A stretch of 64,000 bases of DNA, taken from the NCBI GenBank assembly GCA_948567375.1, contig OX419756.1, positions 28,968,333 to 29,032,332 on the forward strand, in the 5' to 3' direction. The DNA is from Lunularia cruciata. Lineage: Eukaryota; Streptophyta; Marchantiopsida; Lunulariales; Lunulariaceae. Positions 1 to 35,740 of this stretch are shown one piece after another (the first letter of the stretch is position 1; each line of letters begins with the position of its first letter). The notes under the pieces are model-generated. The model made no database searches. It was not told the DNA's origin and saw only the letters and a program-made list of their open reading frames with translations. A program made the position numbers and the translations under genes.

Positions 1-3000
1 GAGCAAGTGTTTTAATCCAAGAGAGTGGATCATCCCTCTTGGAAGAGCACGAGCTACTAAAATTGAGTAATTTGAGGTGGAGAACATAGTGCAATTGTTA
101 GACTTGGGAAGCGCTTTAGAGAGCATATGGGATGGATGCACCAGGAGGACAATTTCTTGCACCTAGCTTCCCATTCTTGAATCCATTTCACAGCAAGATT
201 ATGTACATCTAGTGTGAGCAAATGAGAGTATTGCTAGTTTATCACTTTGGAGTAGAATTCATGGACAGAGTGATGAATTCACCAAACCCGGTGATTCTAC
301 CTATGGTGGTATACAACAAAGAGTAAGATTTGACAATCTAAATTCTATTATGATGTTATGGATCAAATGTATTGAATCCTCACCCTTTCAACATGCAAGT
401 AGAAATCTGTAATGTAATTAGACCAAAAGTGATGTTTTGGGATTTTATAGTCCGTAATTTTGGTAAGGGAATATTATCAATGAGTGATTGCCTCTAAGGT
501 CCCACTGGTAGTCCTCATAGTTTTTTCACCCTCTCAAGTGATCATTCTAACTCTCAATTGTAGTAGGAAGTAGCAAGTGAACATCAATTGTGTATAGGAA
601 TCACGGACCCGTAATTGCAGGAGTTGATGGACTGAATGTAGGGGATATTGAACAAGTTTTAAGAAATCAAGATGACCATGGAGGAATTGCAAAATCAAGT
701 ACGTGCTATCAAGAAGGATCAAGTAATGCAAGAAGGGGAGTTGTCTCAACAACCAATACCAACAATCAAAGTACCTGGAGAGTTATACATGCCAATCACA
801 CCGATCGCAATCAACAACCAAGCCACATTGTTACTACAAATGAAGAAGACATGCAACATTAAGCCTTACAAGGGATAGTGTTCCATGGGAGTAGTGGAAA
901 ATTAGATTTCAAGAATGAATTGATACCTTCTACTATTCACAACAAAGATCATTGATCATTGATCATTCTATAGGTGTGTTTGCTTGTGGGTACTTGACCG
1001 ATAAGGCCCTCACATGGTACGACGCTTGGGAATGATCATTGATGGTAGAATGACGAGAAGTCACTTGGACAGCCATGCAAGAAGGGGTGCTCAAGAATTT
1101 TCCAATTTGTGGATTCCGTGTTAATGGCCTGAACCAGACTCTAGGGGTTGAAGCAAAAGAATAGTATACAAGAGTACATGGAGGCATTTCTGGATCTACA
1201 GGTTGCAATAACCAATATGAGTCCAGCCAAAGCTCAAAGTCCAGCCAAAGTTGTACACAATTTCAAGAGAGGATTAAAAGAGTGGATTCATCAAGAGGTA
1301 ATGGTGCAAAATCCTCATCTTGTTTTTGAAGCCAATTTTTGTGCCCAAAGAATAGCAAAGGCACTTGGAGGAGGTGAAGCAATAACACCAATGCAAAACT
1401 ATTGGGCAGAGACACACCACTTTGGTGGACCAATACCTATAGAATTGGGCAACATTTGATTTTGAGACATAGGAGCAAGACCTCTCCAAGGAGAACGGGG
1501 ACGGTTCAAAGAAAGGAGAGAATGAGTCCCGCAAGGAGAATGGGCTCGAGAAAAACAATGATGTTGTTACAATTGGGCACATAAACATCAATTGTCATCC
1601 TCTTCATCTTAGAGGCCATTGGTCTCTTTACAAGTGACCTCTGAACCACATAGAGAGATGAATTGAAGAGGAAGATATAGAAATTGCATTGGAAAACAAA
1701 GATCCCTAGTAAATGTACCTTGCGGCCTTATTGGCTCGGTAAAGAAGAGCAAAAGTGGTGGGGAGGAATAAGACAAGTGTGCAAAGAAGGAAGAAGGTAA
1801 ATGCACAATTAATTGTTGTAAATAGAGTGCTAAAAGGCAATCCAGTGAAGGTGTTGATAGACCCTAGGGCAATAGAGAATTTCTTGTCTTGTTCTATTGC
1901 AATAAGGTTGGGGTTGGAGTTGAAACTAGAGAAGGATGAGAAGGACAAAGTAAAGTTACCTAATGGTTAGACATAGAGGATTGAGTCATTACCTAGAAAG
2001 TAAATACTCTCAGTAGGAGGGTATTGAGAAGCAATCAAGTGGTGAGTGATACAACTAGCTTGTTATGATGTGTTCTATGTATGTTGTGGATGGAGCACTA
2101 CAACCTCATAGGGGATTGGAGAAACAAAGTAGTAAAAACTAGTCAGTGGAAAATCTTTGGGATGAAAAGAAGATCACAAAGGCAAGAGCTGCCTCTGTAT
2201 GTCATTAAGACCAAATCTATTGGTAAGATAGATTGATGTTTAATGGATTTAACAAGAGAAATCCAGATTGCCCAACACAATGGAAAAATTCTTGAGAAAT
2301 TGAAAGATATGGTCAATGAGTTCCAAGATATCTTTCCGGATGAATTACTCGTAGGTTTACCACCAAAAAAGAGAGTAGATCATAAAATTCAAATAATTCC
2401 AAGGAAAACACCTCCTTTTAAGGCCCCATATTGACTATCACCTCAAGAGTTGGAGGAATGTAAGGCTCAAATTGAGGATATATTGCAAAAGGGGTTTATC
2501 CAACCCAGCATATTAGTATATAGGGCTCTTGTATTGTTTGTGAAGAAGAAGAATGGAACAATGTGCATGTGCATTGACTACAAGGGATTGAATCAACAAA
2601 TGGTGAAGAACAAATATCCATCACCTTGCATGGATGACTAATTTGATCAACTCAATGTGGCAAGACACTTCATCAAACTTGATTTCCAGAGCGGTTACAA
2701 CCAAATCAGGATTGTAGAAGAAGATACACATAAAATGGCCTTTGAACAAGGTTTGGTCATTTTGAGTACTTGGTGATGCAGTTTGGCCTCATCAATGCTC
2801 CAATCACTTTTATGAGTTTGATGAATGACATATTTCATCTATACTTGGGTAAACCTATTGTCCTTTTTCTTGATGACATCTTAGTCTATAGTAAGACGCT
2901 AATAGAGCACAAGCAACATCTGCAAGAAGTCCTTCATATTCTACAATAGAATCAATTGTATGCCAAAATCTCAAGGTGTGAGTTTGAAAAATCTGAAGTA

Positions 3001-5899
3001 GACTACTTAGGGCATAAAGTAAGTGCGGAGGGTACCCAAGTGCTAATAGATCAAATAAAGGTCATTCAAAAATAGAGTGCTCCAAAAGATTATACTCAAT
3101 CCAAGAGTTTCTTGGGATTGATAGAGTTTTATCATCGATTTGTCAAGGACTTCTCCAAAATTGTACAACCTCTAACAACAATATTGGGCAAGGGGAAGAG
3201 GTGGATATAGGGAACCATACAAGACTTGGCCTTTCAAGAGTTAAAAAATGCATTACTACATGCACCAATCTTGAAATGGTATGACCCAAAACGTCCAAGC
3301 AAGATAGCTACAAACGCATTAGGGGTTACAATAGGAGCAATCCTACAACATGAATGGCAGGATGGATTTCACCCAATTGCATATTTCTCTTCAATTGCTA
3401 TCAGAAAAATGCAACTATCATACCACCAAATGAGAAGAGCTGGCCACTGTCCTTGCAACCAAGCATTGGAAGCACTATTTGGGTGAGAAGGCATTTATGG
3501 TAGAGACAAACCACAAACCTCTAGTCTACCTCAAGACACAAAAGGATCTTTCTTGTTGATAGATTTGGTGGGCAAAATGGAGACAACAATTTAGCATGAC
3601 AATCAGATATATGGAAGGCAAGAAGCAACTTGCAGATGCATTCACTCAAATCCCAATGGCAAAAAACTTGGTGATAGAATTCAAAATGAACCTTGAATTT
3701 TGGCCCAAGATTCTTGCTGCTACAAAAACTGATCCACAGATTGTAGGTGCTCAATCATCCAAAGGCATCACTAGCACCCAACAACTCACGTTTTGTGATG
3801 GTAGGTTGTGGATCCCTAATGATACGGATCTAAGAACCACTACCCTGTCAAAATCTCATGATTTTGCCATTGTAGGTCACATTGGAATGGACAAGACCTT
3901 AGATGCAATTAAATGCCATTACTATTGGCCCAAGATGAGCAATGATGTGATGGAATATGTTTGGAGCTGCTTACTTTGTCAACAAAATAAGACTTCTAAT
4001 CAACCTTCTACAAGACTCCTCCAACCTCTCCCCACTCCTACACAATGTTGGGAATAGGTAAGCATGGATTTGGTTCTTTAATTTCCCAAGACCACCTTTG
4101 AGATTGATTCCATTGTAGTCTTTGTCGACCAATTTAGGAAATTGATCACATGTATGTACTACCACCAAGGATGTGACTTCTTTGCAACTAGCTCAATTGT
4201 ACTAAGATGCAATCTTTTCCATCATGGCTTGTCGTGAGTGCTGATCATAGATAGAGGCACTCAATTCACTAGTTTTTTTTGGAGAACACTCTTTGGGTTC
4301 TTCAAAACCAAATTTGCTCCATCCACAACTTACCATCCACAGACCAATGGACAAATAGAGAGGCAAATCACACTATTGAGGACATGCTTCAGAGCTTTAC
4401 TTGGATGAGCAAGAAAGTTGGGACATGTTACTACCATAGGTGGAATTTGAGTACAACATTTCAATGAATGCCTCCATACAAGTCAAATTTTTCTTCCTCA
4501 CGTATGGAGAGCATCCTTTCACAACTGGAAGCTTGATGAAGTCCGTTTGATGGCTACCAAGGTAGATGATGTCAACACTTTTGTTTCTAAAATCCAATAA
4601 GGGGTGGAGCACAAGATACAGATTGCCCAAAATTGGTAAAAGTAGTATGCAAATGCACACAGCCAACACATGGAGTTCAATGTGGGAAATCAAGTTTGGT
4701 TTTCAACCACCAGCCTCAAGTTAGTTGGTCCTCATAAGCTTTGACCTTGTTTTATTAGACCTTTCTCCATCCTTCATCGCATTGGAGCCATGGCCTATCA
4801 CCTTGAGCTACTGCCACATATGAAATCCACTCAATGTTTCATGTTTTCTTATTATGCAAATATGCTCCTCAACCATCCCACTTCTCTTCCATCCAAGAAA
4901 GTTGACCTTGTCCAACCTTGGTTGATGACACATAGGAGTATGAAGTCGAATGCATTCTCCAAAAGTGCATCTCGGGTACTCACCATCCACATGTGGAATA
5001 CCTAGTACATTGAAAAGGGTGTCCCTTGTATGAGGCAACATGGGAGCCAGTAGCCAACTTGACCCACACACCAATGTTAGTGAAATCTTTTGAGCAATAA
5101 CTTTGCAACAAGGACGTTGTGTCTTAAAAGGAGGGAGGTTTGCAATACCAATAGCTGGATAGATGATCTAGATATGAAATTTGATTTAGTAACATTTTGA
5201 AGGATGTTATACATGATGGACTAAGTAGATAAGCTAGAGGTATCACCAAAAGATTACTTCTACAAATAGGCCAAAAACCAAAACATGCTTGGAAACTTTA
5301 GAATCAATAAGTAGACATATGATCTAGAGGTGAAACTTGAGGTGGTAACATCTAGAAGGATGTTACACATGATAGAGAATGTAGATCAGATAGAGGTATC
5401 ACCAAAAGAGCACTTCTACTAATAGGGCAAAAGCCAAAATAGGCTTAAACTTGAGGCAATTTTGGAGGCCTAAACGGATGGATTAGGCCTCAAAAATGTG
5501 TAGATTCCCCCCTCTCCCAATGAAGAAGAGGCTAGTTTTTGCTCCCCCCTGGTTTCTCTTGATGAGAGATTTCCAATGGTATCTCTCCCACATGATTCTA
5601 AGATTCTTACAAGAAGATTCCTTAAAATATTTCCTCCGGTCAAAGCCTATTTGACCAACTAGATGGGACCAAGACCAACATGTCACCCATCCAAGCAAGT
5701 AATCTAAAGGTGGAGCTTGCTAATAGGTCACCTATCCATGTACCTAATCCTCTGGTGGAGCTTCCTTGGAGGAGATCCTCCCTGGCTATATAATAAAGAG
5801 AAGGTGCTCCTTTGGGGCATCGGAGGATTGAGGGTGAAATTTTTGTTTCCTCTCTTGTATCTCTCTTGAAGAGTTCTTTTGTCCTTGGAGTATTATACA
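1..5899 (+). mobile_element. Ty3/gypsy chromovirus, copy A (5' LTR lies outside the window)
   Basis: Old LTR retrotransposon in the order gag, protease, RT, RNase H, integrase, chromodomain, 3' LTR. The window opens inside the primer-binding site: the first bases match those following the methionine-tRNA-type site of copy B at about 15027. Gag covers roughly 600-1600. A protease-like block (VLIDPRAIENFLS) lies near 1838-1885. RT runs about 2280-3190 ([17 protein letters not shown] near 2548), RNase H about 3220-3640 and integrase about 3850-4800. At about 4940-5060 a chromodomain-like block ending in EATWEP follows integrase, which marks a chromovirus. A purine tract (about 5128-5139) sits just before the 3' LTR. 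The copy is clearly broken, with well over ten interruptions, and is old. Confidence 0.9.
5141..5899 (+). repeat. 3' LTR of chromovirus copy A
   Basis: The LTR begins TGCAATACC and ends in a GTATTA..ACA block, matching the TGTAATAC...GTATTACA ends of its relatives at 14423-15025, 54819-55590 and 62713-63626. A TATA element (TATATAATAAAG, from 5787) and the downstream GGTGCTCCTTTGGGGCAT block are kept in all four LTRs and are the likely promoter and start region. The first 300 bp contain the same roughly 150-bp segment twice (about 5145-5280 and 5305-5430). The solo LTR at 54819-55590 shares this doubling, but the LTR at 14423-15025 does not, which defines a long LTR subfamily. Confidence 0.9.
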
Positions 5900-6169
5900 T
5901 CACTACATCATACATCATTGTCAACAACATACACTATTGAAGCACAACTCACACATTAGTCATACATGAACTCTAGCAGTTAGGTCCATCTAACTTAGAT
6001 AGCCATCTACTCCAAGTATATGGTATACCCTATGGTGGGCAAAGATCAAGAAGCCGGGTGATATTGAGCCCCATTGTTGGTTACTTTTCTACAATCTATA
6101 CCATATAAAGGATGAACTAGCTATAGGTCAAGTACATCTAGGATATAACCACTGTCCTTGAGGAATAAC
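5900..6169. other. Spacer between copy A and recognisable part of copy C
   Basis: No coding similarity is visible. It may hold the decayed 3' non-coding end or LTR of the minus-strand element C, but I found no match to the C 5' region at 13.9-14.4 kb, so the 3' end of C is undefined. Confidence 0.4.
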
Positions 6170-8960
6170 CATGAGGGGAGGAGTCAAACATGTCACATTC
6201 TATCCTCTTGAACAACTATTACACATTAACATAGTAGCAACTCCACCAAAAGAGCTGCATAACATAGAACGCAAGCCTACACATACAAGTGCCAAGCTTG
6301 GATCCATAGTACCATCAATGTTTGGGAGATGGCATGCTCAAATGCCATTGGCATTACTTTCCAAAAGATCTTTGCCCATTGAGAACATGCACTCATCCAT
6401 ACGTCTGGATCATCCAAGTCCAAAACTATTGGAGCATTTTGACAAATGGTTGTAGGTAAATCTAGATCTCTTCCAAAGAGTAGAAAGAAAGGAGAGAAGG
6501 ATGCTAAGGAAGCTTGCTGGCTAAACCAATAGCCACTGGCCAACCAAGGTAATTGGAGATCCCAATCTCCTCAATGGCCTCTCTACAAACTATACTTATG
6601 AAATCCACTCTCTTTGCTAAGCCATTTGAACCACTCTCTTTCTTAAGCCATTTGAACCACTCTCTTTGCTAAATCATTTGCCTTAGAGTGATATCAAGAA
6701 ATAGTATGATGATCAATTAGATCCTTCTCACACAAGACCTGAAACTCTCCCAAGAACTTTGTACATTGATCAGTCAAAACCTTAGCTTGTGCACCAAAAT
6801 GACTAAAAACTCAATCCAAGAATGAGTAAGCCATCCCTTCATTGGACTTATCAAGAAGTGCAACCAACTCAATCCACTTGGAGAAGTGTTCTACCATAAC
6901 CAAAACATACTGATGATATCTCATAATCAATGATAAAGGTCCAACAAACTCCAAACTCTAAGGTAATTAGTGTAATTTTGGTGTAGGAGCACTAAATAAT
7001 GCTCTAACTTGGTCACAAACCACACATCTAGTAACAAACTACTATACATTGGTATGCATACCATGCCACAAATAATGACTTTGGAGTAAGCTATATGTAT
7101 GCTTTACTCCAAAATGTCCTAGCTCTTCATGAGCATGACAAACCAACTATGGTCTCTAGGATGGAAGTGGTACTACTTGTACTCTACCATCTTCCCATAC
7201 ACAAAGAAGGTGTCTACCCACCAACTTAAACTACTTGGCTTGCTGAAGAACATGATGTCTCTCCTTAGCACCAATTGTATCACCAATTCTGTCATCCACA
7301 ACACTAGTGCAAAGATAATCCATCACCAAGACATTATCATGAATGTCTTGTTGAATTATACCAATATTTCCACTTTTGGATCTATGACCTCAATAATTCC
7401 ACCGGTATGTGCTAAGAGAAATACCACCAAAGCCTTAGAGAATATAAATAAGAAGGTAGATGCATGCCAACTTGGCACCATCTCCTCATTTGTCTCACTA
7501 TGCCAATGTGCCCTGGTCTAACTTGTTGGTTGAGATATGGGTTTCTACTCAACCTATCTACATCATAGTTCACCACTCTAGGTATGTAAATAACCATGAA
7601 ATCATACTCTTGTAAAATTAGAGCCCATTGTGTAAGCTTCCCAAAAAGCTTGTCAGACTCCATCAACCACTTCAATGGTTGATGATCAATGATGAGAATG
7701 AAGGAGTTATAGGGTATCAAATAGGTAACATTGAATATGTGTTATTGCCCATAATGCTACCAAGCACTCTCCCTCATATGAATATACTTCACATCTACTA
7801 AATTGTTAGAGCAACTAGCATAGGACACCACAAACTCCTTCTCCTCATCATCATGTTGGGTGAGCACTACTCCAAGCCCCAACATGCTCCAATCAATGTG
7901 AACTTGGAATGGTTGTCCTTTGATCAGTCTCTCAAGAATGGGGGTAGATATCAACCTCTCCTTGAGCTTTATAAAAGAAAAACTCTCTCTTGCTCATCTC
8001 TCCAACACACTCTTGTGTGAGCTTGTCCAACTTTGTGAGGGCCTTGACCTTGGTAATGGCACTAAATCCTCTAACATAGCGGCAATAGAAGTTTACCAAC
8101 CTAAGGAATGCTCGCACTCTACTCACATCCGTAGTCCAAGGATACATGCAATAGCCACCACCTTGGTATGTTGAACACCAAGTCCTCTAGGGTAAATAGT
8201 GTGACCCAAATACTCAACGTGCTCATGGAAGAATCTACACTTTCCAAGATGTAATTTGAGTCCATGAGATCTCAATCTCTCAAACACCTCCAAAAAATGC
8301 CTCTTATGTTCTTCCTAATAATGCTATAGACCAAAATGTCATCAATATAGCATTGAATAAAATCCAATCCTGCTAGGATCTTATCCATGACCCTCTAGAA
8401 CTCAACAAAAGCATTCTTTAACCCAAATAGTAAGAACCTCCATTGATATAATACATCCTTACCGTGAGGATCAATAGCCAAAAATCCTATCTTGGACTTA
8501 TCTTCCTCCTTGATTGGCAAATAATGATATCTTGCTCAAAGATCCAAAGTATTGAATACCTTTGCATGACCAATTGCATCACAGATCTCCTCAAGTGTAG
8601 CCATGGCATACCAATCAGCCGTAGTTTATCAATCAATTGGACAATAATCTCCACACATCTGCCTATCTATGCATATCCTTCTTGGCTTGCATCACTATAG
8701 CTAAAGCATGCTTTCCATGTGAAATCTCCACCAAACCTGCCTCAAAATGGTTTTTATTGTGGCTTTGAATCAATACTTTCTCCATGTCACTAGATTCATA
8801 AGGATGTCAAAAAATTGGTGTATTGCTAATAAGCTCAATGTGAATACTAGGTCCTTTTAGAGCACCCAAATACTTCATACTAAAGGCAAAAAAATTTGTG
8901 TAGCTCCTAAAGAACCTCCAAACTCTCTATCTTTCCTCTCTTGTAAGCTTGGGTCCAAGA
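6170..8960 (-). pseudogene. RT, RNase H and integrase region of element C
   Basis: Fossil pol 3' half. RT motifs lie between about 8960 and 8000, with a YIDDILVYS core near 8330-8352. RNase H carries LGVVLTQHDDEEKEFVVSYA (near 7900) and DHQPLKWLM (near 7690). The integrase has a zinc-binding segment near 7160-6980, a core (GPLSLIMRYHQYVLVMVEHF, near 6930) and a C-terminal part with FLLFGRDLDLPT (near 6480) and DLDDPDVWM (near 6410). Multiple interruptions; no longer a gene. Confidence 0.85.
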
Positions 8961-9339
8961 TCTTTCTCCCAAGTACCCTTTGTAACTGATGTAGGAGTGG
9001 AAGAAATATTGACTGGCTACTATGTTAGGCACTTAGTATTAGTAATTTCATGCTTCCAACCACTAGAGTAACCAAACTTAGTATGGAAACTCCCTCTGAT
9101 TTACCTACAAGCTCCATACGTCCTCTAGCTGCATCTCATGCAGGTCAAGGGTGTGATCCAAGTAGACCATGCTCACTTGGATAGATTCTAAGCAGACCAT
9201 TCTCACTAGTAGCCATTGGCTATGTCCCAAGAAAACCTTGCCTACTTGGTCCATCGCTCCTAACATGTGCTTGAATCATCTGGATAGGCATAAAGCTCAC
9301 AAGTGTTCAAGTTGTGATGCCTATCAAGCGTATCCTAAT

Positions 9340-10301
9340 CTGCCAAGCCAAGGTTTACAATCCAGTCAAACAATTTAGGTCCATAGCTTGACCTAACATA
9401 TGACACTTGGATGCCTTTGACATTGTTGGAACAATGGTGATAGTGGTTTGAAAACCCATTTCTTGCTCCCTCTCATCAACATTGGGCTTCACTAACTATT
9501 ATAACTATGAGTCTCAAACAAGTCCATGTCCCCTCTCTCAAAAAGCATGAGAGCTTGGAGAAACTCATAAGTGTGGGTAAAGCAGATTTGGCCTATCCAA
9601 CAAGATTCACCATTTCCATAGGTGACCTATCAGCCACTACCACCATTTGAGACTAGCGCCCAACATTTAAAATATCACCAACAATGAGGTGATTTAGTCC
9701 CTAAATCCCATCATAGGCACATTGTAGAACCTCTTTGGGTAAGAGGTCTGTCCACCAAAGATTAAGATGATGAGCCTGTGATCCCACTCTAGCTGCAACC
9801 AACAATATGGTAGTTCTCATCCAAGAATGGACTTGATGGGTACTTGCCACCACTTGGGTGCAAGAATCACCAATCAAAAGGACTTTCTCCAAAATGTAGG
9901 TTGTAGAAATAGACCAATGAACCTAAAGATGTTTTAGTATATGTTTTAGTATATGTTTTAGTATCTCCCAAACACACCACAATGGGGTCCTAGAGACCCT
10001 AACCTCAGCTTGCCCGTGTATGTCCTTGATATGGCCATCCAAAAATCACCAAATGAATGAGACCATGTCTCTCCAAATCCTACGTCCCCAACAAGGAAAT
10101 GTCTACAAGTTGGGTCTTTTGGTAACTCCTAATTGTTGACATTAGCAATAACTCAAGATACCAATGGGCCAAGTGTGCCACATAATGTAACAAGAGTTGC
10201 CTAGTAGTCTCATCTCTCCCTACATACAAGTACTTTTGTACTTGCATATTTGCATGTAATACAATAGCTAGTCTAGTGCTAATCCTACCAAACAACTCCA
10301 A
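9340..10301 (-). pseudogene. Captured cytosine-5 DNA methyltransferase domain inside element C
   Basis: About 320 codons between protease and RT read as a C5 DNA methyltransferase (DNMT/Dcm superfamily), which moves a methyl group from SAM to cytosine C5. Visible in order: motif I for SAM binding (LELFGRISTR, 10301-10272), then YLYVGRDET in the motif II position; a motif IV block GWP-Q-GHTRAS near 10030-9995; a motif VI-like LEKVLLIGDS (ENV position) near 9890; a motif VIII-like ARVGSQAHHLNLWWTDL near 9800-9750; and C-terminal DEREQEMGF (about 9478-9452) followed by LGQAMDLN (about 9400-9376). Copy D keeps the N-terminal half, including the catalytic GWPCQ. Relatives of this arrangement are known from retrotransposons of some algae and protists. 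The copy is a fossil with many interruptions; function is inferred from the family. Confidence 0.8.
9930..9970. repeat. Short tandem repeat inside element C
   Basis: Three to four copies of TTTAGTATATG in a row, a local expansion within the methyltransferase region between the motif IV and motif VI blocks. Confidence 0.85.
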
Positions 10302-10959
10302 TGGGTATACACCCTCTATTGGATATTGCCCAGCAATAAGTATGTGGTATCCAAAGGTAACATTGAGAAAGACTCCAAAGGCTCATCCTCACATAGGTCT
10401 CCTAGTGGTACAAAGGCTCCACAACAAGCCTATTATACCAATTGATTTGCATGCTACTACAATGCCTCTCAGAACTCCACAATGGAACATCCAAGGTGGA
10501 TCCTACTCGGACTCCAAATCCAAGTGATCTCCTCTAGTACTAGATTATCCTCTACATGGGCATTTCTCTCCAATAAGTGACCAGGCCAAAGTAACAAAAC
10601 CATTGAAAGTTGAAACTAATGGCCATGGTCCATGACTGTAGTGAGCCAAGACTACCACTACTAAAGCATATTGTTAAATGACACACCCATCCTCACCTAA
10701 CTACCAACTTGGTCTATAGAAGGTTGTCTCTTCCAAGTAGTCAATACCCATGGGATATAATACTACTCCACCAACTAGCACATCATATGACTCAACTACT
10801 GTTGCAATAGCTTGAGCTCTCACCATAGAGTTGTAAATCTAATGACCAGGCTGAATCTATATAATGAGCTCTCCACATGTGATGTACAATGTAGAACCAT
10901 CCCCCAGAGATATATAGATCTAAAATGGACACCTCTCCACATTGGTCTTCCATAGCTCC

Positions 10960-11010
10960 ATATTGACAACTACAACCTTCCCTAACATAAAGGGTTGCAC
11001 ACTAGAGTCT
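10960..11010 (-). other. Retroviral-type aspartic protease block of element C
   Basis: Minus-strand reading gives RVLLDSSVQPFMLGK, which resembles the LLDSGAQPVMLGK active-site region of Ty3/gypsy proteases. It sits between gag and the methyltransferase block. Fossil. Confidence 0.6.
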
Positions 11011-11879
11011 AATAAGACCCTCTATGGTATATAGACCTACCCTAAAGGGCCCAACAAAAAAAATCCGTCTCTCATTATCCAATAGGACAACTCAAATTGT
11101 GAACCGCACTTGCTCAACGGTAGTCTAGTTGGTAACTCCTCCAATCTAGTTGTTGTTGCTTGATATAAACCATTGGTTGGTGAGCGGATCACATGCTCCT
11201 CAACCAAGTCAGCTCCACTATCAACCACCTCTGCTCTAGAAGTAGGACCACATCATCCCTACTCTCACAAAGTGTGGCAGCCAAATAGAACACTAGAGTT
11301 AGGTCAACTTCAAATGTAAACATATCATTGGTTGAGAATAAAGGGAAGTGCATAATCAACTAAGCCATCCCCAACATCAAGCTAGACTCAATTGGTGTAG
11401 TAGCAAGTAGTTGACTAGTAGGTAGTTTATCATGCACCCCATCACCACCTAACACACCTACACTAGGACATCTAGGAGCTATGGATGTCATTTGTAGTGC
11501 CTCAAAGAGTGTAAATGATTAGAGGAGACTAGGGAAGATTCTTCTCTTTGTGGGTCCAAATCCACTAATGTTCCTCTAGGCTCTAGAGTATGCACTACAC
11601 TCCTAGTTACTGCAATAGATGCATCTACTTGTGTTGCTTCACACATGAAGTGCAAGATGTCTCTATCACTAGCATAAGAGGTGTAAACCTCAACACCAAA
11701 ATTTGATCTCCTCTAAGTTATGGCCATGTTGGCCAATCTTTGCTCCAACTACTCAATCCAAGTAGCCATGGTTGTATCAAAAGTAAAAGTAGGTACTACA
11801 CTCCTACCAAGTGTGGATCTTCTACCACCACCTCACCCTCCATGACTTGGATCTCCTCTACCACCTACTATAGTAGCCC

Positions 11880-13080
11880 TACCACTCCATAATTTTGAGT
11901 GGAGGTCAAAGCATAAGTCACTAGTATGACCAAATCTTTGGCAATGGTCACACTATCTCTATGATGGTTGTGATGCACCATAGGTATCATGTCCATTGCC
12001 TTGAGTGCACTCTCTCTTGTGGTGAGGTCCATCACAAGTCCAACAAGCAACACCACCACTCATTGGCTACTATTGACCTAAAAATGAAGATAAGGGTCTA
12101 GCTATAGTAGGCCTTCTACTCACTCCATAGGATAAAGGTTGTCCACTCTATCCTTGAAAACTAACATGGTGTGGTACACTCTACTACACTCTAGAAGAAG
12201 TAACAATCATGGATGAGGTCTCCCTACCAAATCCAAATGTCACTCTCTGAGCTCAATGTGTTCAGCCAAACTAAGGACCATTGCTAAAGTATATGAAGTA
12301 GCCTTTAACAATGTAGTATCACGTACTCTGTATTGCAACTCCCTATCCAAAATTCTTTACCAAAACAAGACTATTTGGGCTTCAATAACTCAATCCTTGA
12401 GTGAAACTAATCAATCATCTCATGCAAGTGTATGCCTCTTGTTGGCCGTCTTCAACCTTCCATTTGAATTCTTACAAGCTCTTCAACTTGTCAATCCGCA
12501 CTCCCTAGTCATTTTGACTCAAGCTTTGGAAGAACTCCACCATGGGATTAAACCTGGTACTATACCACCTCTTGTAGTGGTACCTCTACTTGTAGTAGCA
12601 CCATTTCCAACTAGTGCACCTCCACTAGATCCACCAATGCTACCCCTAGAAATCAAGCCTAAAGTGATGGAGATGTAGTTTGGAGACCAATATTATCTCT
12701 ATAGCTCAATCTCCTCCAAGTGAGCTCTCTTGAATTCATGATAGTCATCCATTGGTGGACCCTCCAAGTTCTAAAACAACCCCTTCCATACAATGAAAGG
12801 TGTGATCAAAGTCAGGTTCCGCATCTATTGTAGATCACACCAACTATCAAACTCTTGGATGAAGTCATCCAACTCAATAGTACTCACTAAACTAGAGTAG
12901 CATTTAGGGCCCTTGGATGCCCCATGGATCTCATCTATATCCCACAACAATTATGCGGACACACCAAGTGCACTCTCAACTAAATCAATCCATGTATCAA
13001 ACTACAACTCAGAGTCCATCTCCTCTCTCATTGGGATATGAGATATAAGTTTTATACTAAGTGCCACTCCGTGTAAACCC
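11880..13080 (-). pseudogene. gag of element C with two zinc knuckles
   Basis: The zinc-knuckle pair is the clearest part: CWTCDGPHHKREC followed about 30 codons later by CDHCQRFGHTSDLC, a perfect CX2CX4HX4C, at about 12050-11905. Upstream codons to about 13080 match the equivalent stretch of copy D at about 20880-21900 but show no recognisable capsid motif by eye. Fossil, several interruptions. Confidence 0.75.
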
Positions 13081-14417
13081 ATTATGTATTATCATGATAT
13101 CTCCTTAAGAATCCTCAAAGAACTTTGTTGTGATAAAGTAACTCAAATTGTAACCATAACCACCGCAAGTACCCTACCAAGAATCACTACCAAGTGCTAC
13201 CACCAATTGAACACCACCCACTAATGTAATTGTGACTACAACAACTACACTAAGGGAAAGTGCAACCTGTAACTTGCCATCACAACATGCACTCTTACGG
13301 TCTACATGTCATCACTTCTTGCTTCACTAGAGAGAAACACAAGTAGTTTGACTAGTCATCACTCCAACCTCATTACCAAGAGAACACTAGACACCATCAC
13401 TCTAAAGTCAAGGCACCTCACACAACATGGTGCATAAACAAAAACTAAAGAATGGAAGAGATCCAATCCCAAGAAGTCTAAACACAACTCTCTATTTCAT
13501 AAATCAATACCAAACTAACTCTGTCACCATTTGGCATTTTACATGGTAGGAGTGTCTATCAACTTCTTAAGCTACCAAAGGTCACCAAGAATGGGATCAA
13601 ACTACCTCTAGCCAAAATTTGACATAAATCTTCCACAAAATCTGACATAAAATTTGACATAAATTTGAATTGACTCCTCTATAGTTGGCTAACTACCAAA
13701 TCCTTTGCTAAATCTCCACTTGAGTCAAATCTCTAACTTGAGGAGATGGGTTCTCAAATCCAACTTCAATTTTGCATTTTGAGTTCAACTCACACCAAAT
13801 CGGCCTTGATTTCACCTCTTAGGCTCAAATTGAACACTATTGTCTAAAATTGACACTATTCTCATCAAAATTTGGCCATCACTTTTGCACCCAATATCAT
13901 TGAAATCTGAACCATGATCAAGGTACCAACAATCAACCAGGCTTGGAGATACCACCAACCTCTTCAGTTCTTGCACCCGATTTCTCCTTGACTCTCACTT
14001 CTCCAATGTTAAAAATTCTTCATCAACTCAAATCACACGCAAATAGATTAAGACTTGATCATTCACTCAATCACTTTGCCAACAATCATGCATTGATTAC
14101 AATCAAGCAACTTCTACTCTAGCTAAGAGACTCTAGGTGATGCTTGCCGGCCTCTGTCCACCATAGCCAAAAAATCAAAGGCTCAACATCAAAGAAGTGA
14201 ATTTTTTAGAGTTACACTATGACAGTATACCTTTGATTTTGGCCTAGGTCTCCAGCCCTAACGGTCTTGCTGATGGTACACTTGATGTCACAAATAGTGC
14301 AAGTGACAATGGGTCTCACCTTGTGATCAATACCTCAAACATGAAATCAAACCACCATGCATGAGTCTATGAGTAACTACCAAATACCTTTGACTACCAA
14401 CACTACTACTCTAGTGT

Positions 14418-14422
14418 CCAAG
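14418..14422. repeat. Target-site duplication of copy B, left
   Basis: CCAAG immediately before the 5' LTR, repeated exactly at 18655-18659. Confidence 0.9.
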
Positions 14423-15025
14423 TGTAATACAAGCATCTAAACATATTATCTAGAGGTCAAAATTGGCTTCATAACATCTAAAAGGATCTTGTGTACAATG
14501 GGCTAAGAATATCATATAGAGTTGTCACCAAAAGAGTACTTCTATTGATAGTGCAAAAGCCAAAAAAAGCCTAAAACTTTAGAGCCAATTTTAAAGGCCT
14601 AAACGGATGAATTAGGCCTCAAAAATAAAATAAAACTCCCTCCTCCCCCATTGAGAAGAACGCTTACCTTCTCTCCCTAATGATTTGTCTCATCAAGAGC
14701 TTTCCAATGGTACCTTACCCATGCAATTTTGAGCTCCTTATAAGAAGATTCCCTAAAGATTCCTTTTAGTCAAACCCGTTTGACCAACTAGACAGGACAA
14801 GGATTGACATTTCACCCATCCAAACAACTAATCCAAGGATGGAGCTTGTTGATAAGTCACCAATCCATGTATTTGATCCAAGGGTAGAGCTTCCTTTGAG
14901 GAGATCCTCTTTGCTATATAATAAAGAGAAGGTGCTCCTTTAGGGCATCGGAGGATTGAGAGTGAAACTTGTGTTTTCTCTCTTGTATCTCTTTTGGAGA
15001 GTTCTCTTGTCCTCAAAGTATTACA
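14423..15025 (+). repeat. 5' LTR of chromovirus copy B
   Basis: 603 bp, bounded by perfect inverted ends TGTAATAC and GTATTACA. It has the conserved TATATAATAAAG promoter element at about 14915. It represents the short LTR form without the internal doubling seen at 5141-5899. Confidence 0.93.
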
Positions 15026-18000
15026 ATGGTTTTAGAGTGGGTGTTTTAATCCAAGAGAGTGGATCACCTCTCTTGGAAGAGCACGAGCTATTGAAATTGA
15101 GTAATTTGAGATGGATAACATAGTGCAATTGCTAGACTTGGGAAGTGCTTTAGAGGGCAGATGGGATGGATGCATGGGGAAGACAATTTCCTGCACCTAG
15201 CTTCCCATTCTTGAATCCACATCAAGATTATGTACATCCAGCGTGAGCAAATGAGAGTATCTCTAGTTTATCACTTTGGAGTAGAATTCATGGATAGAGT
15301 GATGAATCACCAAACTTGGTGATTCTACTTGTGGTGGTAACGACAAAAAGTGAGATTTGATAATCTACATTCCAATATGATATTATGGATTTGAATGTAC
15401 TAAATCCTTACCCTTTCAACACGCAAGTAGAAATCCATTACGTAGTGAAACCAAAAGTGATGTTTGGGGATTTTGTAGTCCACAATTTTGGTGAGGAATA
15501 TTCAACTAGTGATAGCCTCTAAGGTCCCAATGGTAGTCCCCATAGTTTTTGCACCCTCCTCAAGTGATCATTCTAACCTTTATTGAAGTAGGAAGTAGAA
15601 ATTGAACATTGGTCGTGTGTAAAAATCATGGATCCGTAGTTGTGTGAGTTGATGCAAAGAATGTAGGAGATGTTGAACAAGTTTCTAGAAATCAAGATGA
15701 CCATGGAGGAATTGCAAAATCAAATACATATTGTCAAGAATGATCAAGTAATGCAAGAAGGGGAGCCGTCTCAACAATTAGCACCAACAATCAATGTACA
15801 TAAAGAGTTATGCATGTCGATGACACCAATTCCCATCAACAACCAAGCCACATTGTTACTACAAATGAAAAAGATGTGCAACATGACATGCAAATGCTAC
15901 AACTAGCTCGTTATGATGTGATCTTAAGTATACCGTGGATGGAGCACTACAACCCCACGATGAATTGGAAAAAGAAAGTAGTGAAAACTAGTCAATGGAA
16001 GATCTTTGGGATTAAAGGAAGGTCACAAAGGCAAGAGTTGCCTTTGTATGTCATAAGGACCACATCTAGTGGTAAGATAGATAGATGTTTCATTGGTTTA
16101 ATAAGAGAAGTCCAGAGTGCACAACACAATGGAAAAATTCTTGAGAAATTGAAAGATGTGCTCAATGAGTTCCAAGATGTCATTTCGGATGAATTACCCA
16201 TAGGTTTACCACCAAAAAGGAAATAAGATCATAAAATTGAGATACATCCCAAGAAAACACCTCCTTGTAAGGCCCCATATTGATTATCACCTCATGAGTT
16301 GGAGGAGTATAAGGCTCAAATCAAGGATATGTTGCAAAAAGGGTTTATCCAACCCAACGTATCACCATATGGGGCTCTTGTATTGTTTGTGAAGAAGAAA
16401 GATGGAATAATGCACATGTACATTGACTATCACGGATTGAATCAACAAATAGTGAAGAACAATTATCCATTACCTTGCATAGATGACTTGTTTGATCAAC
16501 TTAATGGGGCAAGGCAGTTTATCAAACTTGATTTGTGGAGCGGTTGCAACCAAATCAGGATTGAAAAAGAAGATATACACAAAATGGCTTTTCAAACAAG
16601 GTATGGTCACTCTGAATATGGTCACTCTGGTGATGCCGTTTGCCCTCACCAATGCTCCAGCTACTTTCATGAGTTTGATGAATGATATATTTTGTTTGTA
16701 CTTGGATAAATTTGTTATCATTTTTCTTGATGATATCTTAGTCTACAATACAACACTAATAGATCACAAGCAACATCTACAAGAAATCCTCCAAATTCAA
16801 CAATAAAATCAATTGTATGCCAAAATCTCAAAGTGTGAGTTTGATAAATCTGAAATAGACTACTTAGGGCATAAACTAAGTGCAGAGGGTATCCCAAGTG
16901 TTAATAGATAAAATAGATGTCATTCAAAAATAGAATGCTCTAAAAGATCAAACTCATCTCAAGAGTTTCTTAGGATTGATGGAGTTTTATTGTTGATTTG
17001 TCAAGGACTTCTCCAAGATTGCACAACCTCTAATAGCACTATTGGGCAAGGTGAAGAGGAGAACCGTACAAGAATTGGTCTTTTAGGAGTTGAAAGATGC
17101 ATTACTACATGCACCAATCTTGAAATAGTATGACCCAAAATGTCCAATCAAGATGGCTATATATGCATGAGGTGTAGCAATAGGAGCAATCCTACAACAA
17201 GAATGGTAGGAGGGATAGCATCCAATTGCATATTTCTCTTGTAGGTTGTTATCGACAGAATGCAATTATCACACCACCAAACAAGAAGAGCTGGTCATTG
17301 TCCTTGCAACCAAGCATTGGAAGCACTATCTGGGTGAGAAGGATTTGTGGTAGAGACGGACCACAAACCCCTAGTCTACCTTGAGACACAAAAAGATCTT
17401 TCTTGTCAACAGATTTAGTAGGCAAAGTAGAGACAAAAATTCAAAATGACAATCAAATATGTGGAAGGCAAGAAGCAACTTGCAGATGGATTCACCCAAT
17501 TGCCAATGGCAAACAATTTGGTGGTGGAAATCAAGATGAACCCTAAATTCTAGCTCATGATACTTGTTGATACAAAAACTAATCCACAAATTATAGGTGC
17601 TCAATCATCCAAAGGCATCACCAGCACCCAAGGACTCACCTTCCATGATGGCAGGTTGTGGATCCCAAATGATACAGATCTAAGAACCACCATCCTAGCA
17701 GAATGTCATGATTCTACCATTGCAAGTCGAGTTGAAATGGACAAGACCTTGGATGCAATCAAATGCCATTATTATTGGCCCAAGATGAGCAATGATGTGA
17801 TGGAATATGTTTGGAGCTACCTACTTTGTCAATAAAATATGGCTTCTAATCAAGCTCCCATATGACTCCTCTAACTTCTTCCCACTCCAAAACAACATTG
17901 AGAACAAATAAGCATGGATCTCATTTGTGAATTGCCCAAGACCACCTCTGGGTTTGATTCCATTGTAGTCTTTGTCAACCAACTCTTCAAAATGATTCAT

Positions 18001-18654
18001 GTATGTCTTACCACCAAGGATGTGATTGCCCCACAACTAGCTCAATTTTACTTAAATGTAGTCTTTTCCCATCATGGCTTGTCTCGAGTGCTCATCATAG
18101 ATAGAGGTACTCAATTCACTAGTTTTTTTTGGAGAACACTCTTTGGATTCTTCAAAACCAAATTGGCTATGTCCACATCTTACCATCCTCAAACTTATAG
18201 AAAAATAGAGGGAAAATCACACTATTGAGAATATGCTTTAGAGCTTTACTTTGGATGAGAAAGAGAGTTGGAACACCTTACTCCCATTGGTAGAATTTGC
18301 TTATAACAATTCAATGAATGCCTCCATACAAGTCACACCGTTCTTCCTCATGTATAGAGAGCATCTTTCACACCTTCAAGCTTGATGAAGGTTTGTCCAG
18401 TGGCTACCAAGGTGAATGTTGTCAACACTTTTGTTTCTTGAATCCAGCAGAGGGTGGAGCATGCCAAGCACAAGTTGCAGATTGTCCAAAATTGACGGAA
18501 GCAATATGTAGATGCACATTGCCAACACATGGAGTTCAATGTGGGAGATCAATTCTTGTTGTCAACGACTTACCTCAAGTTGGTCCTCATAAGCTTAGAC
18601 CTTGTTTTATTGGACCTTTCTCTTGGAGAGTTCTCTTGTCCTTGGAGTATTACA
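14423..18654 (+). mobile_element. Chromovirus copy B inserted in element C
   Basis: Same family as copy A. It starts with an LTR (14423-15025), followed by a methionine-tRNA-type primer site at about 15027 (TGGTTTTAGAGTGGGTG). Then come gag N-terminal sequence (about 15670), RT (about 16130-17040; [19 protein letters not shown] near 16400), RNase H (about 17090-17480) and integrase (about 17590-18560). The right end finishes with LTR-terminal sequence GAGTATTACA. Both flanks carry the 5-bp target duplication CCAAG (14418-14422 and 18655-18659), so this is one insertion event into C. It is shorter than A and broken in many places. Confidence 0.92.
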
Positions 18655-18659
18655 CCAAG
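18655..18659. repeat. Target-site duplication of copy B, right
   Basis: CCAAG immediately after the terminal GTATTACA of copy B. The sequence after it to about 18690 resumes element C. Confidence 0.9.
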
Positions 18660-18689: not shown

Positions 18690-18815
18690 ACAATGAAAGT
18701 ACTCTTTTTTGACACCTCTATTTAATCTATTTAGGCCATCATATATAACATCTATCAAAATATTACCCAAGCTAATTTCCACCTCTAAATAGTATATCTA
18801 GCTAATGGTATTATA
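18690..18815 (-). repeat. Chromovirus LTR fragment at the junction of elements C and D
   Basis: Its reverse complement matches the first 125 bp or so of the chromovirus LTR (TATAATACCATTAGCTAG, then AGAGGTGTCA). Its outer edge at 18815 abuts element D exactly after the Gln codon of the GWPCQ motif. No target duplication could be recognised, so it may be a recombination scar. Confidence 0.85.
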
Positions 18816-19110
18816 TTGACATGGCCATCCAAAAATCACCAAATGAATGGGACCATGTCTCTTCAAATTCTATGCTCCCAATAAGGAAATATCTATTTTA
18901 GTAGTTAAGGGTTCTACTAACCCCTAACTAATGATATTGGTAATAACTCAAGATACCAATAGTCCAAGTGTATCACATGATATAGAGAGACTTGCTTTGT
19001 AGTCTCATTTCTTTCCACATACAAATACCTTTGTACTTGTATACTTACTTGTAGTATCATAACTAGTCTAGTGCTAATCCTACCAAAAAACTCCAATAGC
19101 CATACTCTCT
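18816..19110 (-). pseudogene. N-terminal part of methyltransferase domain in element D
   Basis: Motif I (EFFGRISTR) lies at about 19098-19070, followed by YLYVERNET. The motif IV core GWPCQ is at 18830-18816 and ends exactly at the LTR fragment. The Pro-Cys pair is the catalytic motif of C5 methyltransferases. This independent copy supports the domain call made for element C. Confidence 0.75.
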
Positions 19111-22100
19111 TTATTGAATACCTCCAAGCAGTGAATGTGTTATCCAAAGGGGACAAGGCAATAGACTCTAGAGGCTCATCCTCACACTGGTTGCCTAGTG
19201 GTACAAATATTCCACTCCAAGCCTATTGCACCAATTGATTTGCATATTGATGCAATGCTCCCTTGGAACTCCACAATAGAACATCCAAGGTGAATGGAAT
19301 GATCCCACTCATCCTCTATATTTAAGTGATCTCCTTTGGTATTGGGTATCCTTTGCATGGGCATTCCCTTCCAATAAGTCACTAGGCCAAGTAATGGAAT
19401 TGGTGAAAGCTGAAACAAATACCATGGTCATTTACTATAGTGAGCCTATACTACCATTACTAAGTGCACAAGTAGGCAACATACTAGTTCCTCACTTGAC
19501 TTCCAACCTAGCAAATAGGAAATTATCTCTTCATAATAGTCAATATTGAATTTATATGCATGTGGAGTAGAACACAACTCCACCAATTAGCATATCATAT
19601 GACTCTACTATTGTCGCAATGGCTTGAGCTCTCACCATAGAGCTATCCAATTGGGCTGAATCTAGACAATAAACTCACCACATGTGATATACTATGTAGA
19701 ACCACTTCCTAGAGATGTTTGGATCTAAAATGGACACCTCTCCACATTGGTCTTTTGTAGCTCAAGATCAATTATTGTAGCCTTCCCCAACATAAGGGGC
19801 TAATAAGATCATTTGTGGTCCATATATCTTCCTTAAAGGTCCCAAAAACAAAAATCCCACTCTATTTGTCCAATAGGACAATTCTAGGTGTGAACCAAGC
19901 TCACTCAAAGGTTAGTCTAGTAGATAACTCCTCCAACCTAAATGTCACTAAGTGAATCCCATGCTCTTCAATCAAGTCAACTCCACTATCAACCATTTCT
20001 ACTCTAGAAGGAGGAACTAAATCATTCTTACTCTTTCAAAGTGTAGCAACCAACTAGACACTAGAATTGGGTCAACTCCCAATATAAACATGTCATTAAA
20101 TGAGAAAAAAGATAAGCATATAATCAATTGAGCAGCCCCCAATATCATGCAAGATTCAATCTATGTACTTGTAAGTGGTTGACTAGCATCTAGTCCATCA
20201 TGCACTCCATCACCACCTACCACATTGCTTTAGGATGACTAAGAGCCATATATGTCATTTGTAGTGCCTTAGAGAGTGTGAAAGACTAGGGAAGTCTAAC
20301 TATCTACCAACCTCTCCTCTCTATAGGTCCAACTCCATTAGTGCTCTTCTAGGCTCTAGAGCACATATTGCGCTCCTAGTCACTATGGTAGATGCATCTA
20401 CCTATGTTGCTCTACACATAAAGTCTAAGGTACCTCTATCACCAACATAAGAAGTGCAAGCCTTAGCACCCAAATTTGACCTCCTTTAAGCTATGGCTAT
20501 GCTAGCCAATCTCAGCTCCAATTGTTCAATCTAAGTAGCTATGGTTGTACTAGAAGCAAGGGCAAGTATTGCATCCCTACCAGATGTGGGTCCTCTACCA
20601 GTTTGTCTTCCATGACCTAGAGCTCCTCTATCACTTGCCATAGCAGCCATACCACTCCATAACTCCGGGTGAAGATCAAAGCATTGGTCATTTGTGTGAC
20701 CAAATCTATGGCAATGGTCACATTATCTTTGGGTTGGTTTTGATGCACTAGAGTTATCATGTCCATTACTTTGAGTGCACTCTCTCTTGTAATGAGGTCC
20801 AACAAGCAAAACCACCACTCATTGGCTCTTATTGACCAAAAAATGAAGGTAAGGGTCCAATTGCAGTAGCCCTCCACTCACTCCATAAGATTTGGGTTGT
20901 CCACTTTGCCCTTTGAAACCAACATGATGTGATGCACTCTGTTGCACTTTAGAAAAGGTCATAATTGTGGATGAAGTCTCCCCACCAAATCCAAATGCCA
21001 CTACCTCTTCCTCCACCATGTTGAGCTCAAAACGCTCAGCTAAACTAAAGACCACTACCAAAGGAGGTGAGGTAACCTATAAGAATGTAGCATCACGGTC
21101 TCTACATTACAACTCCTTATCCAAGATCCCATGCCAAAATTGGATTACTTGGACTTTAGTAACTACTTGAGTGAAAATTAGCCGTCTCATGCTAGTGTAT
21201 GCTTTGCATAGGCTCTCTAGTCTTTTGCTAGAACTCTTGCAAGCTCCTTAGCTTGTCAATCCACACTCCCTAGTAATTCTTCCTCACACACTAGAAGAAC
21301 TCTACTATGGGTTAAAACCCCAATATCGCACCATCTCCTATAGTGATACCCCCACTTGTAATAGCACCATCTCCAACTAGTGCACCTCCACTTGATACAC
21401 CAATACTACAAGAGTTATAACTTGTAGGTACGGCTAATCTACCCCTAGAAGTTGAACCTAAAGTGATAAAAATGTAGTTCAAAGACCTATTTTGTCTCTA
21501 TAATTTAATCTCCTCTAAGTAAGCTCTCTTGAACTCATGATAGTCATCCATTGGCAAACCAACTCTCCAAGTGCTACAACAACTCTTTCCATGCCATGAA
21601 AAGTGTGAACAAGGTCAGGTTTTTTTATCTACTATAGATTACACCAACTATCAAACTCTTGGATGAAGTTATCAAACTCTTGGATGAAGTCATCCAACTC
21701 AATGGTACCTAATGTACCAAAATAACACTTGTAGCCTTTGGAGGCTCCATAAGTCTCATCCATATTTGACAACAATAGTGCGGACATCCCAAGTCCACTC
21801 TCAACTAAATTAGCTTCTATATCAAACTCTAAATCATAGCCAATCTCTTCCTCATTGGGACCTGAAATACAGGTTGATATTGATCACCATTCCATATAAA
21901 CCCACTATATATTGTAGAAATATCTACTCTAGAATTCCCAAAGAACTCTATTGTGACTCAAACCGTAACTCAAACCATAATGTGACTCAAACCGTAACCA
22001 TAACCACCACAAGTACTCCACCAAGTACCAAGACCACTCACTAATATGGCTCTAACAATGGCAATTGCACTAGAGGAAAGAGTGACCTATAACTTTCCAT

Positions 22101-22732
22101 CATAACATGCACTCTCATGGTCTACATTTCATCACTTCTTGTCTCACTAGAGAGAAACATAAGTAGTCTAATTGGTCATCGCTCCAATCTCATTGCCGAG
22201 AGCACACCAAAGCACCAACACTCTAAAGTCAAGGCACCTTACACAAATATGGTGCACAAAAAAGAAGTAGAGAATGGAGGAGGTCCAATCATAAGAAGTA
22301 TAAATGAAAACTCTCCATCTCATAAATGAACAGTAGACTAACTCTACCACCATTTGGCATTTGGCACAATAGGAGTGTCTACCTACTCTTAAGCTACCAA
22401 GATCACTAAAGTTGGGATTAGCCTTCCTCTCCTAACCAAAGCTACATGTGTATATGTATCAATTGACTACTCACTAGGACAAGAAGTGAGGGTGGACTAC
22501 TTGGCTAGTGCATTCGTCCATAAACTAGAGATTTGGTTTAAACCCTATTATGCAAAATCTATAAGGATGGGCAGATTTTGCTAAACAATGACCAAAAGCT
22601 ACCATAAACTCATCTAAGTTGGCTTGTTGGCCCTCTTAGGCCTTTTTAACCTCTCTAGCCCTATGCCTCCAAGCCTCTAAATGCCAAAATGAGCACTAGT
22701 TAGGACAATTTAGGCAACTTCCAACTTTTGAC
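18816..22732 (-). mobile_element. Ty3/gypsy element D (same family as C), left part
   Basis: This stretch parallels element C from about 10030 to 13900. From left to right it holds the N-terminal half of the methyltransferase domain (18816-19110), a protease region, gag with zinc-knuckle codons (about 20660-20810) and leader sequence. RT, RNase H and integrase are absent from this copy. Element E is inserted at 22733; D resumes at 30473. Many interruptions; old. Confidence 0.85.
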
Positions 22733-34900: not shown

Positions 34901-35529
34901 TGTGAGAGAATGTCGTAGTTCTTATAGTTCGTCCTTTGTTTCCTTTCATGCAGACTACGTTAGTTTCCCTACCAGTAACTTCTGTCAGAGGGTCTTTCTA
35001 TCTGAATCTATTGTGACTAAGAAATTTTGTTCAGTACCAAATAATTTTTGAAAAGGAAGTAAAAAAGTTTTGAAGTCGTATCCTTCGTTGAGAGTTTTGC
35101 TGCTAAAATAGAGGAGGGAATCTGTTTCATGTGTAGGGAGTCCTGTTCATAGAGTACTCAGTACACAGGACCGAGTACACAGTACATAGGACATTTACGT
35201 TAACTTTTGAGGCTAACGTTAGGATGTTGTCGCGTCTATACGAACGTGACATAAAGGACAAGCAGGATCGGAACCACGACAAATCATACACTGACGACAC
35301 CGCAAAAAGATCAGTAAATGGATAGTTTCGTATTCCCAAGTACAAGACGCTGCGTTCCTCGTACTGCTTCCTATGGTATCTACTACAGTTGACTTCAATT
35401 CCGTGCAAGGGTTTGGTATCCTCAAGACCAACCGTGTGACAAACAACAGTTGACTGAAGCCATGAGGCAAAGGTCCGAAGAACAAGCAGTTTCTGCTTCT
35501 CGCAGAGGATCTTCCTCTGCTTGAACATC
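31971..35529. other. CpG-retaining intergenic DNA without recognisable genes
   Basis: Open frames are short (at most about 102 codons), unconserved by eye and scattered over all frames. No repeat family, tRNA or known domain was recognised. Exons of an unrecognised host gene cannot be excluded. Confidence 0.5.
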
Positions 35530-35665
35530 TTTATCCCTTATTGTAGGGCAGATTCCACTTATCGATACTATTGGGTTTTAGTTCCATTTTACCCTATGTC
35601 TTTTCCTTGTACGGCTTGACGAGGTGTTCCCTCCTTCTTGTTATCCTAGGCGCTCGCTTCTTTCA
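35530..35665 (+). mobile_element. LINE 3' tail, copy T1 (5'-truncated)
   Basis: Contains the family tail: TATTGGG, CCATTTTACCC, CTTGTACGGCTTGA, CCTTCTTGTTATCCTA and CGCTCGC in order. Upstream sequence (GGGCAGATT...CGATACTATTG) also matches the 3' non-coding part of the LINE at 36816-38250. This fits a 5'-truncated insertion. Confidence 0.75.
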
Positions 35666-35740
35666 GATCGAACATCCATGTCCACAACTATCATTCGAAG
35701 CCGAATTTCTGCGAAATGAAGCCATCTCCGGCCTCATCGG

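Follow-up and report, generated by a model that had tools for sequence, protein, structure and literature searches.

Does a decayed retrotransposon of the liverwort Lunularia cruciata carry a cytosine-5 DNA methyltransferase (MTase) of its own, and what would such an enzyme do for a mobile element? The question is raised by element C, a Ty3/gypsy element in a 64,000-nucleotide stretch of contig OX419756.1 (positions 28,968,333 to 29,032,332, assembly GCA_948567375.1), referred to here as the window; the original prediction, made from the letters of this stretch, placed an MTase between the protease and the reverse transcriptase (RT) of C. We identified a C5 methyltransferase at this place and refined it to the DNMT3 type. 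C and a second relic, element D, are dead copies of an element family, and sequence comparison supports that the C/D elements are an abundant, living-looking family of land-plant Ty3/gypsy retrotransposons carrying a DNMT3-type MTase. The features of C and D are as follows (L042 is a fuller copy).

5896..14437, minus strand: element C, decayed Ty3/gypsy element (blastn to L042)
about 14422-14027, minus strand: remnant of the 5′ long terminal repeat (LTR) of C, 72% identical to the 3′ LTR region of L042 (blastn)
11722..12752, minus strand: gag (12752-12208) and zinc knuckles (12096-11722) of C (mapped on L042)
10684..11088, minus strand: aspartic protease of C (mapped on L042; tblastn with P0010 and P0023)
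9253..10337, minus strand: DNMT3-type cytosine-5 MTase relic of C, in three frames (motifs, protein search, tblastn and L042 mapping)
9020..9022, minus strand: in-frame TAG of C at the MTase/RT boundary (alignment with 5 copies; 20 copies compared)
7961..8908, minus strand: RT of C (tblastn with relatives; L042 mapping)
6336..7179, minus strand: integrase of C (tblastn with relatives; L042 mapping)
6131..6334, minus strand: C-terminal PHD finger of C (tblastn to Marchantia P0060, 60% identity, E 1.3e-20)
18816..22430, minus strand: element D, second relic, with gag, protease and the N-terminal part of the MTase (blastn, tblastn)
18807..19291, minus strand: linker and MTase motifs I to IV of D, with PCQ intact, cut off at about 18807 (motif reading, tblastn)

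The domain order of C, obtained by mapping back 15 relatives together with L042, is gag, zinc knuckles, protease, MTase, RT, integrase and PHD finger. By blastn, C is 79.4% identical to L042 over 7,450 aligned columns (13616-6337) and 81.9% over 6336-5896, and D is 73.7% identical to C 10026-13609 and parallels its content up to MTase motif IV. The gag/zinc-knuckle stretch of C (12249-11722) is also matched by Marchantia P0042 (tblastn, E 2e-17). Neither a 3′ LTR nor an LTR pair was found for C, which stops beside an LTR of element A at 5895. A scan with the initiator-Met sequence detected no primer-binding site at C, and a repeat search in C and D gave no DIRS-like split repeats, just short repeats of 25-33 nt. 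C is bracketed by an LTR-like repeat (5312-5895 and 14438-15023, 77% identical) common to A (1-5898) and B (14438-18655), two further related elements, both on the plus strand; an integrase zinc-binding domain is present in A at 3596-4057.

The motif strings quoted in the original prediction are present on the minus strand of C, in the order given there and across three frames. The domain is real and slightly larger than the predicted 9340-10301, since it spans 10337-9253 when mapped on L042. The fragments of the C MTase, joined with X at stops and between pieces, were used as a protein query and matched 5 proteins (E ≤ 10, 994 candidates), the best with E 5.1e-56 and 41% identity over 98% of the query. 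All five (P0001-P0005) exceed the PF00145 cut-off, and P0001 matched both C (E 1.4e-59) and D (E 6.5e-29) in the window by tblastn. Searched as they stand, as had been proposed, the C fragments showed no DNA-methylase family match even at E ≤ 10, and against the PDB they gave no C5 methyltransferase, just haemagglutinin noise at E 0.18 and worse. Thus, the MTase identity of C runs through its relatives. C makes no enzyme, because PCQ reads PYQ and its MTase region differs from that of L042 by 6 indels and is interrupted, in the projected frame, by 14 stops (2 of these stops are also in L042); ENV, moreover, reads EKV. A short tandem repeat of three 12-base units lies within the C MTase at about 9929-9964, with a 15-base insertion there relative to L042.

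To place C and D in their family, the assembly containing the window (565,766,749 bases) was scanned with PF00145, which gave 2,161 candidate places, 123 of them scored. All 123 exceed the cut-off, host enzymes included, with open frames of up to 1428 aa. Twenty of the 123 (rows 9-14 and 16-29) were fetched as 10-kb loci and are referred to as MTase-chosen copies; 12 RT-chosen loci were the first places of an RT word with no perfect MTase word upstream. The MTase is followed directly by RT, then integrase and PHD finger, in 20/20 MTase-chosen copies, and a protease match was detected upstream in 18/20 and gag in 17/20, that part being missing or replaced by other sequence elsewhere. This is the placement on which the prediction had asked for a check. 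PCQ and ENV are readable in all 20, which were chosen on that region. Among the RT-chosen loci, 10/12 have the MTase (L060 its C-terminal half only). In the whole genome, words counted with ≤ 3 mismatches gave 5,031 places for the MTase, 5,180 for RT and 2,775 for the MTase-RT junction, with 0 for backward controls; as the words differ in conservation, the near-equality of MTase and RT is a guide and not a ratio. For at least 49 of the first 100 perfect RT places, a listed perfect MTase place lies no more than 10 kb upstream on the same strand; the spacing is 2,126-2,128 bases in 33 of these 49 pairs, and none was seen on the opposite strand (first 100 of each word). The family therefore comprises thousands of copies or pieces in its own genome.

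That the resemblance in C is due to chance, or to a host MTase gene adjoining the element, is hardly conceivable: the lack of a PF00145 match for the C fragments alone speaks for it, and against it stand the relatives at E 5e-56 and the same MTase placement in 20/20 MTase-chosen and 10/12 RT-chosen copies. The copies refute both a chance motif string and a stray host gene, and an MTase in a single copy only is likewise rejected.

The original prediction held that the family once encoded its own MTase. The family did carry the enzyme, and "once" is too weak, given its abundance, partial LTR pairs and long MTase frames. Partial LTR pairs were detected in 16/20 MTase-chosen loci, with 91.4-100% identity (the pair of L045 is 448 bp), and such pairs, together with gag, protease, RT-RNase H and then integrase, identify the family as Ty3/gypsy. 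Pooled dN/dS was 0.28 for gag (17 copies), 0.32 for RT, 0.41 for the PHD finger, 0.47 for the MTase and 0.56 for integrase (20 copies each), and 0.63 for protease (19 copies); decay after insertion inflates all of these values, and the selection of copies on the MTase lowers that of the MTase. On these figures, the MTase looks to be kept about as well as the other enzymes of the element.

What kind of MTase is it? A search from the best relative retrieved 114 proteins at E ≤ 1e-3 (7,993 candidates scored), 24 of which bear bryophyte names (Marchantia polymorpha 15, Calypogeia fissa 4, Sphagnum 4 and Riccia sorocarpa 1). The curated PF00145 cut-off is also passed by the own-genome copy L033 and by L018, both of which carry the PHD finger PF00628. 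Profile search and fold ranked DNMT3A/B first, and a relative models onto DNMT3A/B; the profile matches at E ≤ 10 include no chain named DNMT1, MET1 or CMT, fold lists not being used to exclude families. In a longer-alignment tree, the retrotransposon MTases group with DNMT3A and the DNMT3 and DRM of the Lunularia genome (support 99.4/98), whereas a 111-column tree did not join them to DNMT3. L013 was too short and was kept out of the trees. The retrotransposon MTases, which are shown to form one clade, have an unpermuted motif order, unlike the DRM-like L024, and their placement as sister to the own DNMT3 of the Lunularia genome gave p = 0.052 in an AU test of the clade. We infer that the capture is older than the moss/liverwort split. 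Host loci were assigned by motif reading only: L023 and L026 are two loci of DNMT3-like exons, L024 is a DRM-like gene with permuted motifs and L025 is a CMT- or MET1-like exon.

That the MTase stems from a bacterium or a phage, and not from a DNMT3 of eukaryotes, is quite improbable in the light of the DNMT3/DRM grouping in the longer alignment and the first rank of DNMT3A/B in profile and fold. IMG/VR scans returned 17 loci (3 + 14), in 14 of which an MTase was read (not in L003, L014 and L015), and these resemble phage or bacterial enzymes, origins being judged by eye. A genome-contig scan returned L018 and four further loci, all from Streptomyces; three of these four were read. The prokaryote loci were retrieved by AGWPCQ-like words, so resemblance to them is partly a product of selection. 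L018 (CADCWO010000201.1) is a contig of 9,285 bp that is assigned to a cyanobacterial MAG; it proved to be an element of the C/D kind, nearly whole-looking and with identical 127-base ends; it is probably a eukaryotic contamination, perhaps from an alga. P0048 likewise carries a bacterial name.

The MTase is the last domain of a Gag-protease-MTase frame, and the same frame resumes after a UAG with RT-RNase H-integrase-PHD. In the MTase-chosen copies, an in-frame TAG followed by CAG lies between MTase and RT in 20/20, and the six bases after it fit CAR YYA in 18/20 (exceptions L034 and L036). C differs at the next codon (9019-9017), which is TAG as against CAG in the 20 fetched copies and is followed by CCA (9016-9014). 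After the other TAGs of these 20 loci, CAR YYA is rare (2 of 3,613). With exact flanks, the junction was counted 502 times with TAG and twice with a codon not starting with T, both CAG; at least 2 TAA were seen among the 100 perfect places listed. The junction is present in 11/12 RT-chosen loci; 10 have TAG, which is followed by CAR YYA in 8. The MTase of L018 is just 51% identical to the Calypogeia one; the L018 frames of 1162 aa and 1047 aa are separated by TAG CAA TCA, the second with Pfam matches to RVT_1, RNase H, an integrase zinc finger and rve. Related proteins end accordingly: P0031 (Sphagnum jensenii), P0007 and P0034 (Calypogeia), P0095 (Marchantia), P0006 and P0020 all stop 93 residues past LGQAMDL, and P0051, P0053 and P0054 have the same last ten letters as the first frame of L018, P0059 nearly so. 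Other relatives terminate elsewhere, some perhaps at contig ends.

In tobacco mosaic virus (TMV), CAR YYA beside UAG is described as essential for readthrough of the viral RNA; when placed in a plant reporter, the TMV context led to 32% readthrough, according to excerpts of PMC2754532. As the same UAG CAR YYA context is found in 18/20 MTase-chosen copies and in L018, Gag-protease-MTase is the predicted default product and RT-RNase H-integrase-PHD the predicted readthrough product. It is unlikely that the UAG is not read through, with RT-integrase-PHD arising instead through splicing, a separate start or re-entry by frameshift, and CAR YYA being retained by descent without that use. The gene models P0061 and P0100 (Marchantia) and P0058 (Riccia) favour that alternative, as they continue from MTase to RT with no intervening stop, possibly via predicted introns; the recurrence of TAG and CAR YYA at the same place in the divergent L018, the frame that continues past the UAG without a shift and the rarity of CAR YYA after other TAGs argue against it.

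We consider it probable that the best explanation of these elements is an old capture of an MTase that joined the Gag-protease frame ahead of a predicted leaky UAG, would be made at the level of Gag and would methylate the element's own cDNA or insert, with targeting by the PHD finger. Most ribosomes are predicted to stop at the UAG and yield Gag-protease-MTase, so that the MTase would be packed into particles at the Gag level, while a minority readthrough product would comprise Gag-protease-MTase-RT-integrase-PHD. The MTase in the particle or pre-integration complex would then methylate new cDNA or the fresh insert; a new copy would thus arrive bearing the plant's repeat mark, and the PHD finger on the integrase may steer insertion by reading histone tails. 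DNMT3A joins its catalytic domain to a histone-reading ADD domain, to which the presence of DNMT3 and PHD on one element can be likened. The purpose of the enzyme may be to manage silencing or to mark targets.

The composition of the elements is consistent with the heavily methylated repeats assumed in the original prediction. The gene-rich part of the window has a CpG observed/expected of 0.69-0.72, compared with 0.33-0.46 in the 20 copies, 0.10 in D and 0.09 in C; the values for CHG are 0.99, 0.78-1.20, 0.19 and 0.27, respectively. Hardly any CpG and only a minority of CHG sites thus remain in C and D, as would be expected of methylated DNA. This loss is the footprint of lost methylated cytosines, and so the host probably methylated the C/D elements, the footprint being silent on who wrote the mark. 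One option proposed by de Mendoza et al. 2018 (PMC5890265) is that such an MTase acts as a brake that favours the host, or merely rides along, self-methylation slowing the element and sparing the host with no benefit for insertion. The strong CpG and CHG depletion of the old copies C and D speaks for this option, which we nevertheless rate as having a low probability, as the number of places with an MTase (more than 5,000) and the identity of partial LTR pairs (up to 100%) argue for a family that was not much slowed. Within the window, 32000-48000 is a CpG-rich gene island (0.72) that switches sharply to CpG-poor repeats (0.09-0.23 in the stretches measured). A 347-aa open frame of this CpG-rich stretch (39882-40925, minus strand) has one match at E ≤ 1e-3, Marchantia paleacea Mapa_007059 (37%), no Pfam match at E ≤ 0.01, and what we take to be a VQ-like motif.

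Several observations weigh against self-methylation by a Gag-level enzyme behind a leaky stop, besides the 111-column tree and the three gene models named above. MTase-less retroelements also retrotranspose in such genomes, and the MTase of KnitGypsy showed no methylation in yeast, a result called inconclusive there (both from excerpts of PMC5890265). The codon preceding the UAG is GTG, GTA or ATG, as against CAA in TMV, and flanking bases altered readthrough efficiency in the reporter study (PMC2754532, in part). P0107 (825 aa) runs from the MTase into integrase and PHD finger in one open frame without a stop and with no RT match between. In the RT-chosen L062, CAA replaces the stop; L053 has neither MTase nor junction, and L059 has the junction and no MTase. 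The dN/dS of the MTase is above those of RT, PHD finger and gag and below those of integrase and protease, and many copies have further stops and frame breaks.

Among known systems, plant chromoviruses carry a chromatin-reading domain, the chromodomain, C-terminal to the integrase, and the C/D family shares a chromatin reader at this position, a PHD finger in its case. SIRE1 of soybean is a Ty1/copia element. Like the C/D family, it is an LTR element of a plant in which an in-frame stop separates coding regions; in SIRE1 the stop is subject to suppression and precedes an envelope-like protein (as cited in PMC2194720). In TMV, too, a UAG with CAR YYA after it separates the polymerase from enzyme domains encoded upstream (PMC2754532, in part), but TMV is a plant RNA virus with another codon before the UAG, and readthrough in the C/D retrotransposon is a prediction. 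Excerpts of de Mendoza et al. 2018 (PMC5890265) describe KnitGypsy-Dnmt3 of the alga Klebsormidium nitens and Symbiodinium elements. KnitGypsy-Dnmt3 also has Ty3/gypsy coding domains and an unpermuted DNMT3-type MTase, and the C/D element may work like it, a likeness by description and not by sequence. By description, it differs in its charophyte algal host, DIRS-like repeats and an MTase in the Pol ORF, whereas the C/D family has land-plant hosts, ordinary LTR pairs, an MTase that ends the Gag-protease frame before the UAG, a terminal PHD finger and thousands of copies or pieces. SymbioDIRS-Dnmt3 of Symbiodinium is a further retrotransposon-borne DNMT3-type MTase, and both tested enzymes methylated CG in yeast; these are DIRS elements with a tyrosine recombinase, described as independent captures (PMC5890265, in part).

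The accessible main text of PMC5890265 mentions neither PHD nor readthrough, and its sole "stop codon" passage concerns Symbiodinium; that of Neumann et al. 2019 (PMC6317226) has no mention of methyltransferase, PHD, Marchantia or bryophyte. With reference to the 2018 work, a 2025 paper (PMC12344493), in the part available, notes that retrotransposons "in streptophytes and dinoflagellates" include members of DNMT3. Excerpts of Yaari et al. 2019 report a DUF3444 domain in the host DNMT3 of non-flowering plants, and DUF3444 was not among the Pfam matches of the relatives scanned. DNA-methylase transposons were held to be absent from land plants such as tracheophytes (Morozov et al. 2019, in part). 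In titles and abstract openings of the open-licence literature, we found no report of MTase-bearing elements in bryophytes, and no match in print for the C/D gene order with its predicted leaky stop.

DNA methylation is a main brake on plant transposons, and here a predicted writer of this mark is carried by an abundant element that itself is a usual target of it. Mosses and liverworts have MTase-bearing elements, in contrast to the land-plant absence claimed in 2019, tracheophytes lying outside our sample. Since the MTase shares the Gag frame and precedes a stop of the leaky type, it may be a particle component at the structural level. Taken together, it is possible, though we lean against it, that an ancient bryophyte lineage of elements builds Gag-protease-DNMT3 particles, rations its polymerase by a leaky UAG of the plant-virus type, puts the repeat mark of the host on its cDNA ahead of insertion or in the course of it, and carries writer and reader together. 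If this is true, part of the repeat methylome in such genomes would be written by the repeats themselves.
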